Assembly (NCBI GenBank): GCA_905236635.1
Contig: CAJOCJ010000002.1
Coordinates: forward strand, 1 to 64,000
Source of the DNA: an uncultured Bacteroidales bacterium
Lineage (GTDB): Bacteria > Bacteroidota > Bacteroidia > Bacteroidales > F082
DNA length: 64,000 nucleotides
Reading direction: 5' to 3'
The first letter of the stretch is position 1; each line of letters starts with the position of its first letter. Of this stretch, positions 7,822 through 54,443 are shown in pieces. The notes under the pieces are model-generated. The model did no database searches. It was not told where the DNA came from and worked only from the letters and a program-made list of their open reading frames with translations. Both the position numbers and the translations under genes were made by a program.

Positions 7822-7858
7822 TAGATAATAGATAATAGATAATAGATAATAGATAAAA
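7817..7858 (+). repeat. Tandem heptamer GATAATA x5 plus a degenerate sixth
   Basis: gataata at 7817, 7824, 7831, 7838, 7845, then gataaaa; starts inside the last sense/stop codons of the upstream gene. Confidence 0.95.
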
Positions 7859-7896
7859 GTTAAAAGATTAAAATAAAATCAATTAAATTATTACAC

Positions 7897-10113
7897 ATGA
7901 AAAAGTTATCATTAACATTTGCGTTCATCTTTGCTTTGATGGGCATCGTGCGCGCTGACGAAGGCATGTGGTTGCCAATGTTCGTCGAGCGCTTGAATTA
8001 TGTCGACATGCAGAAAATGGGTCTCCAGCTGACACCGGAGGAGCTCTACAGCATCAACAATAGCAGTTTGAAAGACGCCATCGTGGGTCTGTCAAACGGC
8101 GCTCATCCACGCGGATTCTTCTGCACTGGTGAGATCGTGTCAAAGAACGGTCTTCTGTTCACCAACCATCACTGCGGCTACAGCTCGATAGCAGCCCTCT
8201 CGACGGTGGAACACGACTATCTCAACGAAGGCTTCGCCGCCAAGAGCTTTGAGGAAGAGCTTCCGGCAGAAGGTGTCTCAGCCTCGTTCCTCGTGAGGAT
8301 GGAAGACGTGACAGCCGAAATCTTCAGCGTCATCGACTTCGACATGGATTACATGGCAAAACAAAAGGCTATCAACGCCAAGATCAAAGAGTTAGAGGAA
8401 GAGGCATCGGAAGGTGGCAAGCTCAACCCTGTCATCAAAGGTTTCTTCGAAGGCAACGAGTATTATATGTTCGTGTACAAGACCTACACCGACGTGCGTC
8501 TCGTGTTCACCGCAGCCCAGTCTATTGGTAAGTTCGGCGGCGACACCGACAACTGGATGTGGCCTCGTCACACCGGCGACTTCAGCGTGTTCCGCGTCTA
8601 TGCTGATGAGAACGGCGAGCCGGCAGAATATGCAGAGAGCAACAAGCCTCTCACTCCTAAGTACAACCTCACCATCAGCCTCGACGGCGTACATCCGGAT
8701 GACTTCACCATGATCTGGGGCTTCCCAGGTTCAACAGAGCGTTACATGAGCTCCTACGGCATCAACTACAACGTCGACAGCTTCTATCCTGTCGTTTACG
8801 AAGTGTTCAAAGCCGAGACCGACGTCATGGATGAGTACATGAAGGTTGACAAGGCTGTCAACATCGCTTATGCCGACAACAAGGCAGGTCTCGCCAACAC
8901 CTGGAAGAACTTCGAAGGCCAGATGACCATGCTCCGCAAGAACAAGGTCGCCGAGCGCAAAGCAGAACTTGAGAAACAATTCGCTGGATGGGTCGATGCA
9001 GAAAAAGCCCGTCAGGAGGAATATGGCGATGCTCTCGAGACACTCGAGGCTATGTACGGCCAGCTCAGCGAGGTTGCTCCAACATTGTTCTATCCTAACT
9101 TCCTGGCACAGCTCAACCCGCTTGGAATGTCAGCAGAATTCATGGAGTATTATATGATTTCGACAGACAAGGAAGCCACAAAAGAAGATAAGAAAGCAGC
9201 AGCAGAGGCTTTGAAAGAAATCGATGTTGACGCTTTGTTCAAAGACCTCGACGCCCGTGTGGAGAAAGGCATGCTCGTGGCAGTTATGGACATCTACGGC
9301 AAGAAGTTCGCTGTCGATGAGATGCCAGAATACATGCAGAAACTAGCCAAGAAGTTCAAAGGCGACTGGAAGGCATTGGCAAGCTACATCTTCGACAACT
9401 CGATGTTCAGCACCGCTGATGGCACCAAGGCATTCATCGAGAAGCCAAGCGCCAAGAAACTCGCCAAAGACCCTGCTTTCGTTATGTTCAACGCCATGAG
9501 AGAGCAGATGATGTCAGTAGCACCGGCATACAGAATGGCACAGATCGCCATCTCCGAGGCTGACCACGACTTTGTGAAAGGTCTCCGCGAGTTCTATGCC
9601 GAGACACAACCTGACAAGGTGCTTTATCCAGATGCAAACTCAACAATGAGAATGAGTTACGGTTCGGTGAAAGACTATCAGCCAGCTGATGCTGTCTCTT
9701 ACGACTACGTATGCACCGCCAACGGCATCCTCGAGAAATACATCCCTGGTGACTTCGAGTTCGACGCTCCACAGGCTCTCCTCGACCTCATCGAGAAACG
9801 CGACTTCGGTCAATATGCCGACGACAACGGCGAGCTCATTACCTGCTTCTTGTCGACCAACGACATCACAGGCGGTAACTCTGGCAGCCCTATCATGAAC
9901 GGCAAGGGCGAGCTCATCGGCTTGGCCTTCGACGGCAACTGGGAGGCTATGAGCGGCGACGTCAACTTCGAGCCTAAGCTCCAGCGCACCATCAACGTCG
10001 ATATCCGTTACGTGCTCTTCATCATCGACAAGGTGTACGGAGCCACCAACCTCATCGACGAGCTTGACATCGTCAAGGCGATGCCTGAGCCTATTAGAGT
10101 TGAAGAAGAATAA
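7897..10113 (+). CDS. S46 family serine dipeptidyl-peptidase (DPP7/DPP11 family)
   Basis: DEGMWLPMF...GFFCTGEIVSKNGLLFTNHHCGY...DNWMWPRHTGDFSVFRVYAD...TGGNSGSPIMNGKGELIGLAFDGNWEAMSGD. Confidence 0.95.
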   Translation: MKKLSLTFAFIFALMGIVRADEGMWLPMFVERLNYVDMQKMGLQLTPEELYSINNSSLKDAIVGLSNGAHPRGFFCTGEIVSKNGLLFTNHHCGYSSIAALSTVEHDYLNEGFAAKSFEEELPAEGVSASFLVRMEDVTAEIFSVIDFDMDYMAKQKAINAKIKELEEEASEGGKLNPVIKGFFEGNEYYMFVYKTYTDVRLVFTAAQSIGKFGGDTDNWMWPRHTGDFSVFRVYADENGEPAEYAESNKPLTPKYNLTISLDGVHPDDFTMIWGFPGSTERYMSSYGINYNVDSFYPVVYEVFKAETDVMDEYMKVDKAVNIAYADNKAGLANTWKNFEGQMTMLRKNKVAERKAELEKQFAGWVDAEKARQEEYGDALETLEAMYGQLSEVAPTLFYPNFLAQLNPLGMSAEFMEYYMISTDKEATKEDKKAAAEALKEIDVDALFKDLDARVEKGMLVAVMDIYGKKFAVDEMPEYMQKLAKKFKGDWKALASYIFDNSMFSTADGTKAFIEKPSAKKLAKDPAFVMFNAMREQMMSVAPAYRMAQIAISEADHDFVKGLREFYAETQPDKVLYPDANSTMRMSYGSVKDYQPADAVSYDYVCTANGILEKYIPGDFEFDAPQALLDLIEKRDFGQYADDNGELITCFLSTNDITGGNSGSPIMNGKGELIGLAFDGNWEAMSGDVNFEPKLQRTINVDIRYVLFIIDKVYGATNLIDELDIVKAMPEPIRVEEE

Positions 10114-48461: not shown

Positions 48462-48500
48462 TATCAACTACTCTAAACTCTACACTCTCAACTCTAAACT
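48462..48500. repeat. Heptamer arm, locus E
   Basis: Minus strand AGTTTAGAGTTGAGAGTGTAGAGTTTAGAGTAGTTGATAG, overlapping the gmd stop codon. Confidence 0.85.
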
Positions 48501-49569
48501 AATCCTCAAGATACATTTTCCTCACCTTCTTCATATCGTGCTCCACCATGATCTTCACCAGTTCTTCGAAGCTTGTCTTACGCGGATTCCAACCCAGCTG
48601 TGTCTTTGCTTTCGTTGGGTCGCCGAGCAGCTGGTCGACTTCTGCCGGACGGAAATAGCGTGGGTCGACTTCCACCAAAACCTTGCCCGTAGCCTTGTCG
48701 ATGCCCTTCTCATTCTCGCCTTCGCCTTCCCAGCGAAGCTCTATTCCGACTTCTTTAAATGCCAGTGTGCAGAACTCGCGCACGCTATGATATTCGCCAG
48801 TGGCAATGACGAAATCGTCAGGTTTCTCCTGTTGGAGGATAAGCCACATGCACTCCACGTAATCCTTGGCATAGCCCCAGTCGCGCAAGGCGTTGAGGTT
48901 ACCAAGATACAGCTTGTCTTGGTGTCCTTGTTTTATTCTGGCTGCCGCCAATGTTATTTTCCGTGTCACGAATGTCTCGCCGCGCCTCTCGCTCTCGTGG
49001 TTGAAGAGGATGCCGTTGGCAGCGTACATACCGTAGCCTTCGCGGTAGTTTTTCACTATCCAAAAACCGTATTGTTTCGCCACTCCGTATGGTGAGCGCG
49101 GATAGAATGGCGTCGTCTCCTTCTGTGGCACCTCCTGCACCTTTCCGAACAGCTCCGACGTGGATGCCTGGTAGATGCGGCATTTCTTCTCCATCCCAAG
49201 GATTCGCACCGCCTCAAGCAGTCGCAAAGTGCCAACGGCATCGGCCTCGGCGGTGTATTCCGGACAGTCGAACGACACCTTCACATGGCTCTGCGCGGCG
49301 AGGTTATAAATCTCGTCAGGCTGCACCTTCTGGATGATACGGACAAGCGACGACGAGTCGGTCATGTCGCCGTAATGCAGCGTGATCAGGCGTTTATGCT
49401 TCATGTCGCGCACCCATTCGTCGAGATACAGATGCTCAATGCGACCAGTGTTAAACGATGACGAGCGTCGGATTATCCCATGCACGTCGTAGCCTTTTTC
49501 CAGCAGAAACTCCGCTAAAAACGAGCCGTCCTGCCCCGTGATGCCTGTGATTAATGCGGTTTTTGACAT
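48499..49569 (-). CDS. gmd: GDP-mannose 4,6-dehydratase
   Basis: [46 protein letters not shown]...[22 protein letters not shown]-type C-terminus. Confidence 0.96.
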
Positions 49570-49592
49570 ATCGATTAGTGTTTTATGCAATG

Positions 49593-49698: not shown

Positions 49699-51015
49699 TT
49701 AACCCAAAATAGCTTCCTTGATCTTATCAACGATATACTTCACATCGTTGTCTTTTACATATGGACCGCTCGGCAGGCACATTCCGACTTTGAACAATGC
49801 CTCTGAAACGCCGTTCAGGTATGCCGGAGCGTCTTTATAGACTGGTTGTTTGTGCATAGGTTTCCAAAGAGGACGGGCCTCGACGCCTGCGGCGTCGAGC
49901 CACACGCGCAAAGCTTCGACATTGTCATTCGGTTGGCAGTCGGTGGTTGCCGATTCAGCAGCATGAATAACACCTGCAGCACCGCCGACAGCACCTTGAA
50001 CGATGGTCTTGTAAGCGTTCTCCTGACCTTTGATTCTGATGCTCGGGTCAATAGTGATGGTGTTAAGCCAGAAATTGCTGTCGTAACGCTCATCGGGGTT
50101 GCCATGGATCTCAATGCCTTTCACGTCTTTCAGAAGCTCTTTGTAAAGCTCCATGACGTGTTTGTGATGGGCTATATGGTCGTTGACAATAGTCATCTGG
50201 CCGCGGCCTATACCTGCGCAGATGTTACTCATTCGGTAGTTGTAGCCTATTTTCTCATGCTGGTAATACGGATAGCTCTCGCGATATTGCGTAGCGTACA
50301 TCATGATTTCGCGCCATTCGTCTTCGTTGGCGGTAATGAGAGCGCCGCCTCCCGAGGTGGTGATCATCTTGTTGCCGTTGAAGCTCAAAACGCCATATTT
50401 TCCGAATGTTCCGAGCACCTGTCCTTTCCAGCGTGAGCCGAATCCCTCGGCAGCGTCCTCGACGACAGGGATGTCGTAACGGTTAGCGATTTCCATGATG
50501 CGGTCGGCGTCGTATGGCATACCGTAAAGTGCAACAGGGACAATAGCTTTCGGCTTCTTGCCTGTCTTGGCGATACGGTCTTTGATGGCCTTCTCAAGCA
50601 GTTCGGGATCCATGTTCCACGAGTCCTTCTCGCTGTCGATGAATATCGGTGTCGCGCCAAGATACGTTATCGGGTGGCTCGAAGCGCAGAATGTGAAGCT
50701 CTGTACGCAGACCTCGTCGCCCGGTTTCACGCCGCATGCTATCAGTGCGAGATGTACGGCTGCAGTTCCTGCTGAAAGAGCCACGACCCGCTTTGCGAGG
50801 GATTGCGGCTCGGAGGCCGCAATGAGGGTAGTCCCATCATTCCGCACTTGATGCGGAATCTCATTGACAAAATCCTCGAGATCTTTTTCAAATCCGTTGA
50901 CATTCGGTCCGAGCGGCACCACCCAGTTGGTGTCGAAGGCCTCTTTGATATACTTTTGTTCAAGTCCTGCCTCCGACATGTGCGCGAGGCAGAGGTAAAT
51001 ACGATTTTGTGGCAT
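49699..51015 (-). CDS. DegT/DnrJ/EryC1/StrS aminotransferase
   Basis: IYLCLAHMSEAGLEQKYIKEAFDTNWVVPLGPNVNGFE...SFTFCASSHPITYLGATPIFIDSE...SFNGNKMITTSGGGALIT...ARPLWKPMHKQPVY. Confidence 0.94.
   Translation of the reverse strand: MPQNRIYLCLAHMSEAGLEQKYIKEAFDTNWVVPLGPNVNGFEKDLEDFVNEIPHQVRNDGTTLIAASEPQSLAKRVVALSAGTAAVHLALIACGVKPGDEVCVQSFTFCASSHPITYLGATPIFIDSEKDSWNMDPELLEKAIKDRIAKTGKKPKAIVPVALYGMPYDADRIMEIANRYDIPVVEDAAEGFGSRWKGQVLGTFGKYGVLSFNGNKMITTSGGGALITANEDEWREIMMYATQYRESYPYYQHEKIGYNYRMSNICAGIGRGQMTIVNDHIAHHKHVMELYKELLKDVKGIEIHGNPDERYDSNFWLNTITIDPSIRIKGQENAYKTIVQGAVGGAAGVIHAAESATTDCQPNDNVEALRVWLDAAGVEARPLWKPMHKQPVYKDAPAYLNGVSEALFKVGMCLPSGPYVKDNDVKYIVDKIKEAILG
50788..50862. repeat. Two tandem palindromes read in frame inside DegT
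   Basis: Minus strand ATTCCGCA-TCAAG-TGCGGAAT (50839-50859) and ATTGCGGC-CTCCGA-GCCGCAAT (50802-50823), encoding EIPHQVRNDGTTLIAASEPQSLAKR. Confidence 0.85.
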
Positions 51016-51028
51016 ATAAAAAATGTTT

Positions 51029-51080
51029 TTATTTTACTTTTTTCGATGAAAGTAAAATAACGGGAATCTTATTTTACTTT
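51029..51080. promoter_or_regulatory. Three-arm alternating hairpin between abiH and degT
   Basis: TTATTTTACTTT (51029-51040), AAAGTAAAATAA (51049-51060), TTATTTTACTTT (51069-51080): 12-nt arms separated by 8-nt loops. Confidence 0.75.
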
Positions 51081-51105
51081 CGGTAAATAAACTAAAATCA
51101 CAAGG

Positions 51106-52119
51106 TTACGTGTTTTCAAATTTCCCACTTTGGGATGTCACTTTTTTATCCCCTTTTATTTTGAAAATATCTTTGTTGTAACCAACCAACACCTTGTTGT
51201 TTAATTGTAAATTTTCGGGTAATCCCAAATGACTATATAGATAGTCTCGAGCCCGAGCCTCCTTCACACCCAACAATTGTTTCCGATTCGCAGGGATGAT
51301 ATCGTCAGAGTGATGAAAATACAAAAGCATAGCGTCTCCACCTTTCAAACGATTTACTACATCTTTCCATAAGTTTGCATCAGTCTCTCCAATAGACACA
51401 CCAAAAAGGACAATAATACTTGCGTTATGAATCAGTTCTTTGCATGTCAGATCATTATCACTTCGCATAGCATCTATCGCCATCGGTTTTACCAACAAAT
51501 CTTTTACGGACCGGTCTTGTTTGAATGATTCGTTTGATATCTGTTGTTCGTCGTTGACGCCGATTAGTATTGTATCTCCTAACATACCGTGACGGTGGCA
51601 GACATTGCTCACATTATAAAATGTATTGCCAATAGTCATGTTTCTTTTATTGACGGGACCCAACAGCCATTCTATTGTGCTGGTATAATTCAATGTGATT
51701 ATATCTATGTGGGTAATTCTTTGATCCCTATCATAATGTGCGTTATAATGTGCCTTATAATACCTTTGGTCTAATGGCTCAAGATACCTGTCCGGTTCAA
51801 ACAGGTCTTGTAAAAACTTTAAGTTTTGGTTAAATACTTTCCTTTGAGATTCTTTTTGCAAATATTCGGCAAGCTTTTCCGACAAATCGAAATACATATC
51901 GGTCAGCTCCTCGGATGAATTGACATTTTTAGTGAATTTGCCCAATGCGAGCTCCATATCCGACCAATCATCAATTTTTTCATCTATCTCCTTTTTCATC
52001 GTTTTGACGGCTTCATTAGGCGAGTCACACTTCAGATAATAAGGATAGAAATCTTTATATCTGGTATTCAATCCTTGTGCCACATCAAAGCCGTTGCCAA
52101 TAATGTATAGTATGTTCAT
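51106..52119 (-). CDS. abiH: AbiH-family abortive phage infection protein
   Basis: MNILYIIGNGFDVAQGLNTRYKDFYPYY...DIITLNYTSTIEWLLG...IVLFGVSIGETDANLW; typical AbiH N-terminus and GxSIGExD motif. Confidence 0.88.
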   Translation of the reverse strand: MNILYIIGNGFDVAQGLNTRYKDFYPYYLKCDSPNEAVKTMKKEIDEKIDDWSDMELALGKFTKNVNSSEELTDMYFDLSEKLAEYLQKESQRKVFNQNLKFLQDLFEPDRYLEPLDQRYYKAHYNAHYDRDQRITHIDIITLNYTSTIEWLLGPVNKRNMTIGNTFYNVSNVCHRHGMLGDTILIGVNDEQQISNESFKQDRSVKDLLVKPMAIDAMRSDNDLTCKELIHNASIIVLFGVSIGETDANLWKDVVNRLKGGDAMLLYFHHSDDIIPANRKQLLGVKEARARDYLYSHLGLPENLQLNNKVLVGYNKDIFKIKGDKKVTSQSGKFENT

Positions 52120-52143: not shown

Positions 52144-52197
52144 TTATTTCTCACTCATATTAGTCAGGCAGAGGTAAATACTATTATGCTCCGACAT
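52144..52197 (-). pseudogene. Truncated degT 5'-end relic
   Basis: Minus strand ATG..TAA encodes MSEHNSIYLCLTNMSEK*, matching intact DegT start MPQNRIYLCLAHMSEAG; 16-nt identical block GTATTTACCTCTGCCT. Confidence 0.75.
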
Positions 52198-52209
52198 ATA
52201 AAATCCATT

Positions 52210-53811
52210 TTATTTAGAATCAATAATCAGATTCTCTATCTTTGAGATATTTAGCATACCTTCTTTTACTGGCATATTGAACTTTAGGATTGCATTGCTT
52301 CGTGTACCAGCTTTCGGCTGATTGATAACAACATCTTTTATAGTAAAGTTAACATCATTCACAGTTTCTACTGGACGATTGCTTAGTTGTACATTTTTTA
52401 AGGGAGTTCCTGGTGCCGCATTAATGGTTAATCCTTCAACGCTGATTTCTTTTATCCCGTCAAATGGAAGAACAATACTATCACTTTTCTTAATAAAGAA
52501 TAAGTAAAACTCTTTCACATCCTCCGCCATATTGACTGTCAAATTTTTTATTCTGATATTTGGAAGGCATTTCTTGGAAAGCTCATGTCTCTTATTGATT
52601 TCACCAGACACATCCATTGGTCTGCAAAAATAATTTCTCTTTGGTGTTACGTTAAACACACAATTGTATAATTCTATATCATGAGCCACAAATGCATTGT
52701 ACGACCCGCCATACTGAGAAGGGACAAAATCTGTAAAAGTGCAATTATTGAAAACTATCTTTCCAAAAACGGATGCGTGACTATTGAAACGGTCAAAGAA
52801 ATAGACTTTGTCGTAAAACAAATCTCGCCCATAACAATGAATGTCAAAGCGATTTATTTGAGAATCATTTATATGAACGGTATTTACATTGTTGGTTCCA
52901 AAAACGCCCCAATTTCCATTACCGTACATATTATATACTTGGAAATTCCACACATTATTCAAAGAGATGCCATAACCAGAATGGTCTTTCTGGGAATACG
53001 TGCCGTCAATACGCACATTATCAAACGTCACATTAGTACTATTATAAAAGCGTATTCCCCTATCATCAGTCAAGGTACTCGGTGGTGTATAAATGCTAAC
53101 ATCTGAAACATTTACATTGTCAAATCCCGATATATAAGCTATATGCGTAAGAAATGAGCATGCTTCGTCTCGAATTATTGTTAAGTTTTTAAAAACAAAT
53201 GGCTCATTTTTTACTTTAATATAAGAACAAACAGGGGAAGAATCGTCGTTGTCATAAGGCATAATGACACTATTTTTAGCTTTCCCGTTCTCTATTAGCA
53301 AAATATCTTTGCGCTGATGACCATATCCATGACCTTTTCTATTCAATACCCAAGGATTTTCATCTTCAATAAGAAGAATATAACGACCTTTTTTCAATGC
53401 ATCGAGCGAGCGGAAGTCTCCGTCGTCTATCAGCTTTTTCGGAACATTTATAGGAGTTTCTTTTTCCTCTATTCTAAACAACCAGCAGTTTTTTGACGTG
53501 TTTTTAACAATAAAAACGCACCCTTTGAAATCGTTATATTGTGTTAGCGGTATACTGGATGGTTTCCCTGGAATCTCAATTAGAAGAGTATCTATGCCGG
53601 AATAATTGACGTTAACACCTTTGGCTACGGCAGCTTTATGGGTTTCCAACAGCACATTGTATCTTTCAACTCCGGTTTTTGCTTCTGCCAATCCATAATC
53701 ATATGGTGATATGTCTCTTTTTCCTGCAAAATAATGTTTCAAAGAAGAACATGACGACAGGAAAAACGAGAATAACAATATTATGACTATCTTATGATTT
53801 AAAAACTTCAT
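52210..53811 (-). CDS. Right-handed beta-helix lipoprotein (glycan-cluster associated)
   Basis: LFSFFLSSCSS lipobox; beta-helix repeats (NVTFDNVRIDGTYSQKDHSGYGISLNNVWNFQVYNMYGNG). Confidence 0.75.
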   Translation of the reverse strand: MKFLNHKIVIILLFSFFLSSCSSLKHYFAGKRDISPYDYGLAEAKTGVERYNVLLETHKAAVAKGVNVNYSGIDTLLIEIPGKPSSIPLTQYNDFKGCVFIVKNTSKNCWLFRIEEKETPINVPKKLIDDGDFRSLDALKKGRYILLIEDENPWVLNRKGHGYGHQRKDILLIENGKAKNSVIMPYDNDDSSPVCSYIKVKNEPFVFKNLTIIRDEACSFLTHIAYISGFDNVNVSDVSIYTPPSTLTDDRGIRFYNSTNVTFDNVRIDGTYSQKDHSGYGISLNNVWNFQVYNMYGNGNWGVFGTNNVNTVHINDSQINRFDIHCYGRDLFYDKVYFFDRFNSHASVFGKIVFNNCTFTDFVPSQYGGSYNAFVAHDIELYNCVFNVTPKRNYFCRPMDVSGEINKRHELSKKCLPNIRIKNLTVNMAEDVKEFYLFFIKKSDSIVLPFDGIKEISVEGLTINAAPGTPLKNVQLSNRPVETVNDVNFTIKDVVINQPKAGTRSNAILKFNMPVKEGMLNISKIENLIIDSK

Positions 53812-54443
53812 TTTCTTAATTCTTTCGGTTCACGAAACTCTTTCTTGCCACATGTTTTCAATATGATCAGCCATGCCGTCTTCAGTATCAACACAAAATC
53901 ATACCAAAGCGTACGATGATTGATATAATAGAGCTCCAGCTTCAGCTTCTTTGGCATAAATTCCTTTTCGTACGACTCTTCATCTTCAAACAGTTCGCCA
54001 TGTGTGTAATCGTATAAACTTGCCGTGCTGGTAAGGCCTGGTTTTACATCCATAATATGAACATATTCGCCAATATAAACCTTATCCGCATTTTCCTTGT
54101 CCTCAGGCCGTGGCCCCACGACACTCATCTCCCCTTTCAAAATATTCACCACTTGCGGCATCTCGTCTATCTTGGTCTTACGGATAAACTTGCCAAACGG
54201 GAAGATTCGGTCATCATTCTCCAGTGTAGTCAGACGCACCTTGCCGCTATCCACGCGCATGGAGCGGAACTTGTAACACGTAAAAAGCCGCCCGTCCTTA
54301 CCGACACGAGCAGCTTTATATATCGCCGGTCCCGGACTTGTAATCTTGATGATGATTATGGTCAGCAGATAAATTGGACTGAATACAATCAGAAACAAGA
54401 CGGCAAACAGCAGATCGAAACAGCGTTTTATAAAGTCATACAT
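53808..54443 (-). CDS. Undecaprenyl-phosphate sugar phosphotransferase
   Basis: KRCFDLLFAVLFLIVFSPIYLL...GPAIYKAARVGKDGRLFTCYKFRSMRVDS...IRKTKIDEMPQVVNILKGEMSVVGPRPE. Confidence 0.93.
   Translation of the reverse strand: MYDFIKRCFDLLFAVLFLIVFSPIYLLTIIIIKITSPGPAIYKAARVGKDGRLFTCYKFRSMRVDSGKVRLTTLENDDRIFPFGKFIRKTKIDEMPQVVNILKGEMSVVGPRPEDKENADKVYIGEYVHIMDVKPGLTSTASLYDYTHGELFEDEESYEKEFMPKKLKLELYYINHRTLWYDFVLILKTAWLIILKTCGKKEFREPKELRK

Follow-up and report, generated by a model that had tools for sequence, protein, structure and literature searches.

The window, a stretch of 64,000 nucleotides from an uncultured Bacteroidales bacterium (contig CAJOCJ010000002.1), carries a capsule operon on its minus strand. 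Along this strand, the sugar transferase gene of the operon (53808-54443) is followed by an ORF for a beta-helix-like lipoprotein (52210..53811), the last capsule gene ahead of the scar that is the focus of this study. The lipoprotein matched no Pfam family at E<=0.001, and the relatives encoded elsewhere in the genus, also in capsule loci, are 39-43% identical to it. Twelve nucleotides past its stop codon lies a mini-ORF of 17 codons (MSEHNSIYLCLTNMSEK; 52144-52197, with the ATG at 52197): codons 1-16 (MSEHNSIYLCLTNMSE; 52150..52197) correspond to the start of degT, and the first non-degT codons, AAA TAA (52144..52149), close the frame. The cassette gene abiH (51106..52119) encodes a protein of 337 aa belonging to the AbiH family (PF14253, E 2.4e-37; PADLOC AbiH, E 3.8e-6), and is succeeded by the leader (51016..51090) and coding region (49699..51015) of an intact degT aminotransferase gene (438 aa; PF01041, E 1.2e-82), whose orthologues in the genus are 85-90% identical. 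The GDP-mannose 4,6-dehydratase gene (gmd; 48499..49590; PF16363, E 1.3e-156) is conserved 3' of degT, and is 92-96% identical in G044, G045, and G016. The identity of abiH given in the earlier note on this DNA was confirmed.

The leader of the intact degT, delimited by alignment, contains repeated AAAGTAAAATAA / TTATTTTACTTT inverted repeats at 51029-51080, which are common to G044 and G016. A palindromic element, ATTCCGCA-N5-TGCGGAAT, is found in frame within degT (50839-50859); this region (codons about 49-70) is hypervariable across the genus, and the element looks like a repeat tolerated in a coding gene.

The minus-strand segment 52150-52197 was confirmed as a truncated degT start, at exactly the position proposed in the earlier note. 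The 16-nt sequence GTATTTACCTCTGCCT occurs at only two sites in the window: 50987 (intact degT) and 52166 (relic). The best local alignment between the relic and intact degT scored 43, while 1000 shuffles gave 30 or less, and, when the 96-nt relic region was compared with its own genome, the second-best place was the degT start (82%, E 0.002). With a 42-nt degT-start profile, built from the copies of the genus and using shuffled loci as the null, the relic scored 28-31 bits (shuffled loci, 2 or less). A chance similarity between an AT-rich spacer and degT, which the shortness of the match might have suggested, is refuted by these profile statistics together with the recurrence described below, and the frame, start, and spacing of the relic also match those of the empty sites. 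RIYLCLAHMSE is the near-invariant start of this DegT group: among 114 functional copies, R was found in 100, A in 109, and H in 112. In the relic these three, among the most conserved residues, are replaced by S, T, and N, as expected of a decaying copy. The TTTTATATG leader, described as conserved in the earlier note, was indeed found in front of both copies; however, its high AT content makes it weak evidence, as does the shortness of the relic leader, just the 12 nt after the beta-helix stop, compared with the ~70 nt, with inverted repeats, in front of intact degT. The two copies had also been regarded as direct repeats left by the insertion. They are not a target-site duplication but diverged alleles of a gene start, with 16 nt identical and 82% identity over 38 nt.

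In a survey of 92 non-redundant degT loci, six contained a truncated degT start, an unrelated cassette, and an intact degT, in this order. In the window the relic lies 1179 bp upstream of intact degT, with abiH between them. The corresponding distances and cassettes were 1188 bp and DUF3791 + DUF3990 in G129 (L093), 1441 bp and an AAA/ATPase_2 protein in G030 (L042), and about 1.7 kb and an SLFN_AlbA_2/HATPase_c_4 protein in L230, from the public species set, in which the relic is 83.5% identical over 164 aligned positions. These four were detected by the degT-start profile (26-64 bits for the window, G129, and G030 against 2 or less for shuffled loci), and the other two by short-match searches: G127, with a relic of 31 nt and a cassette of about 0.5 kb for a 23S_rRNA_IVP protein, and G041, with a relic of 17 nt exact, followed by a degraded IYLF, and a RhuM cassette. 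Thus, the event is not specific to abiH: five other loci have the same scar with five other cassettes. When the starts of gmd and fcl in the same loci were used as controls, the matches obtained were low in score and attributable to chance, and no truncated copy could be recognised; an order-wide search for degT starts revealed that the pattern is nearly limited to the genus. The comparison shows that foreign genes have apparently entered the capsule operon at the degT start repeatedly, with a working degT retained. Our results support the model of the earlier note in kind, in a more general form than that proposed.

Recurrence also bears on whether the mini-ORF could serve abiH as a conserved leader peptide or as a translational coupler; conservation as a leader peptide was an outcome which the earlier note had regarded as fatal to its model. 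A short ORF directly upstream of abiH has the appearance of such a peptide, but residues invariant in functional degT are altered in it, length, start codon, and sequence vary among the six relics, none of which precedes an uninterrupted degT, and the other abiH loci of the genus that were examined have no mini-ORF; this explanation was rejected.

Several other features of these loci were observed. TAnnTTTG-like boxes sit between the relic and cassette in G129 (L093 9587) and G030 (L042 14294), suggesting that some cassettes may carry their own promoter; a scan for Bacteroidetes-type promoters found no such box between the relic and cassette of the window. In G011 (L137, reverse strand about 7842-7988), a remnant of the 3'-part of degT (74-81% to other degT genes) is located about 2 kb upstream of intact degT, a scar of a different type. 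The degT gene of G055 (L146, reverse strand 9947) has a stop inside its first 80-90 codons, and is either a broken copy or an assembly error.

The left breakpoints within degT at the six loci are after about 10, 11, 16, 16, 27, and 53 codons. All relics end in the first ~165 nt of the 1.3-kb gene, which is tighter than random breakpoints would give and counts against the recombination model proposed below. Some integrases use the 5' ends of genes, so that the head of the target gene is displaced and replaced by a working head, and an element that integrated site-specifically, using an attachment site in the degT start, and rebuilt the gene would account for the recurrent use of one place and the restoration of degT every time. 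However, the junctions are at different degT positions, with no identical core or common end motif seen at the six of them; the relics and intact heads are different alleles; and none of the six cassettes (about 0.5-1.5 kb, one to three ORFs) encodes a recombinase. The variable junctions (about 10 to 53 codons) and lack of a recombinase argue against site-specific integration, which we consider very improbable here, and fit homology-facilitated illegitimate recombination.

Empty sites were found among relatives. In G021 and G040, an uninterrupted degT begins about 20-30 nt past a Fumerase gene, while in G129 and G030 it is the relic that begins at this spacing from the same gene, with the cassette and then intact degT after it. 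A matched pair, G111 and G127, allowed the junction to be read. The two match from the sugar transferase gene (about 94% overall, rising to about 99-100% near the junction) to 31 nt inside degT (ATGATCAAAAAACGCATCTACCTCTGCC common to both); past this nucleotide, G127 has the cassette of about 0.5 kb and then a second, complete degT. This complete degT is chimeric. Its head (~160-200 nt) is 62-70% (about 65%) identical to that of G111, and 77% or less to any degT copy compared, while the remainder, starting near nt 200, mostly shows 90-100% (about 93%) identity to G111 and 95-98% to G003. Since the head is foreign and the body resident, the cassette and the head of a donor degT came in together, and the hybrid implies a crossover inside degT, with the other end joined illegitimately in the start of the resident degT. 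The two proposals that degT once directly followed the upstream capsule gene, and that the cassette entered at the degT start with a second degT allele, are therefore borne out in relatives; for the window, both would apply by analogy.

We consider it probable, at roughly two chances in three, that the stub in the window is what remains of the 5' end of a resident degT, produced when the abiH cassette entered by homology-facilitated illegitimate recombination. Initially, the resident degT would have directly followed the beta-helix gene. Incoming DNA would then have brought abiH into the capsule operon, together with a leader of degT and the head of a different allele of this gene, with ordinary homologous exchange inside degT on one side and an illegitimate end-joining event 48 nt into the start of the resident degT on the other. 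The product would be a dead degT head, followed by the newly gained defence gene and a single functional degT, which may be a hybrid. We infer these same steps, and the route of DNA uptake, for the window genome. The process would act repeatedly at the same slot, probably because the cost of an insert is low, with degT restored and the capsule genes left uncut.

A bacterial process in which one end is joined through homology and the other illegitimately has been described for naturally competent bacteria and E. coli conjugation (PMC3240628). The degT scars resemble it in several respects: a join by homology inside degT and an illegitimate join opposite, clearest in G127, in which the end made by homologous exchange is visible as the switch in degT near nt 160-200; a gain of foreign DNA with a resident remnant left; and left joins without extended homology at variable positions in six loci. 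In contrast to the known form, from laboratory crosses, the process here is natural and repeated at one operon boundary across species. The mechanism is known and its natural setting is new, and what we describe is a class of scars, not a single event.

The earlier note had proposed a search for sister strains in which the beta-helix gene is directly followed by degT. No such sister was found among the genus relatives, and the best relatives of the beta-helix gene (43% identical or less) are not succeeded by degT; the empty sites that were found have other upstream genes. As no beta-helix-degT empty site was found, the order of events in the window is one that we infer. The degT leader and head (first 150 nt) of the window are common to G016 (92%) and G044 (87%), with the homology stopping at about 51090, just short of abiH; what precedes this leader in G044 is an ATPase remnant, with other genes. 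Against the insertion of abiH, no sharp switch between donor and resident is seen in the intact degT of the window, whose nearest neighbours change along the gene. The closeness of the leader and head to these two close relatives is also compatible with degT as the resident gene and the capsule block, rather than abiH, as the newcomer. In this alternative, abiH would already have preceded degT and its native leader, and an imported capsule block, ending in the beta-helix gene and the first codons of a foreign degT, would have replaced the old one, so that the stub dates a capsule exchange, not the arrival of abiH. The different sequence upstream of the same leader in G044 and the resemblance of the relic to degT starts of other lineages (best, 30/36 nt, L211) are consistent with this. 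On the other hand, in G127, of the readable pair, the foreign degT head arrived with the cassette and it is the capsule side that is resident, and under replacement an illegitimate join would have had to terminate the capsule block right beside a cassette several times. We regard replacement of the capsule block as unlikely, and the G127 case favours the entry of abiH, leader, and degT head into an operon with beta-helix and degT. In a separate observation on G044 (L038 + L084; G044:C1 about 53800-70080), the sugar transferase gene and degT are separated by about 16 kb of accessory genes.

The abiH gene, present as a single copy in the window genome, matched PF14253 almost in full length: 129.9 bits (cut-off 30.9) over profile positions 1-258 of 260. 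Its product is just about 26-28% identical to AbiH proteins of Mammaliicoccus phages and a plasmid, and had no match among solved structures. A function in defence is predicted from family membership. Among 43 AbiH matches in 100 genomes of the genus, five are located upstream of degT at a distance of no more than 10 kb, against about 0.12 expected (Poisson P about 2e-7), and each is on the degT strand. In different genomes, other genes found directly upstream of degT included HEC-01 (G058), LmuB-like (G018), PDC-S01 (G025), another AbiH (G102), and PDC-S05/RhuM (G041; genes resembling the latter occur in G028, G103, and G104), and upstream matches to PDC-M13B and DUF3990 were also obtained. 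In G028 (L156 283-4100), four RhuM-family genes are arranged in tandem directly upstream of degT. The degT slot is likely a defence hotspot, although not a proven one because the excess of PADLOC matches upstream over downstream neighbours of degT is modest. As in known defence hotspots and islands, different defence genes (AbiH, HEC-01, Lamassu LmuB-like, PDC-S01, PDC-S05 (RhuM), and DUF3990) occupy one conserved chromosomal place; unlike them, the slot is inside a capsule operon, and no integrase was seen in its short cassettes. Candidatus Limimorpha is reported to be one of the rumen genera with the most defence systems, with an average of 12.6 and up to 34 per genome (PMC11834463). Among the papers searched, none treated AbiH together with capsule loci in Bacteroidales, or defence hotspots at the polysaccharide loci of Bacteroides.

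The scars described here can be read stepwise, from empty sites through stubs to a hybrid gene, and bear on how defence genes enter integrase-free chromosomal slots. We tentatively propose, as a possibility held with less confidence than the reading of the window itself, that the degT boundary is a general integrase-free entry slot, at which defence genes may move as units of a cassette plus a gene head that restores the interrupted gene, and that capsule type and phage defence may be exchanged via the same recombination tract, with each exchange leaving a datable stub. If this is general, such slots would be recognisable in sequence by a simple signature, the gene-head stub, and capsule switching, a change of phage receptor, would be linked with the gain of intracellular defence in one event.
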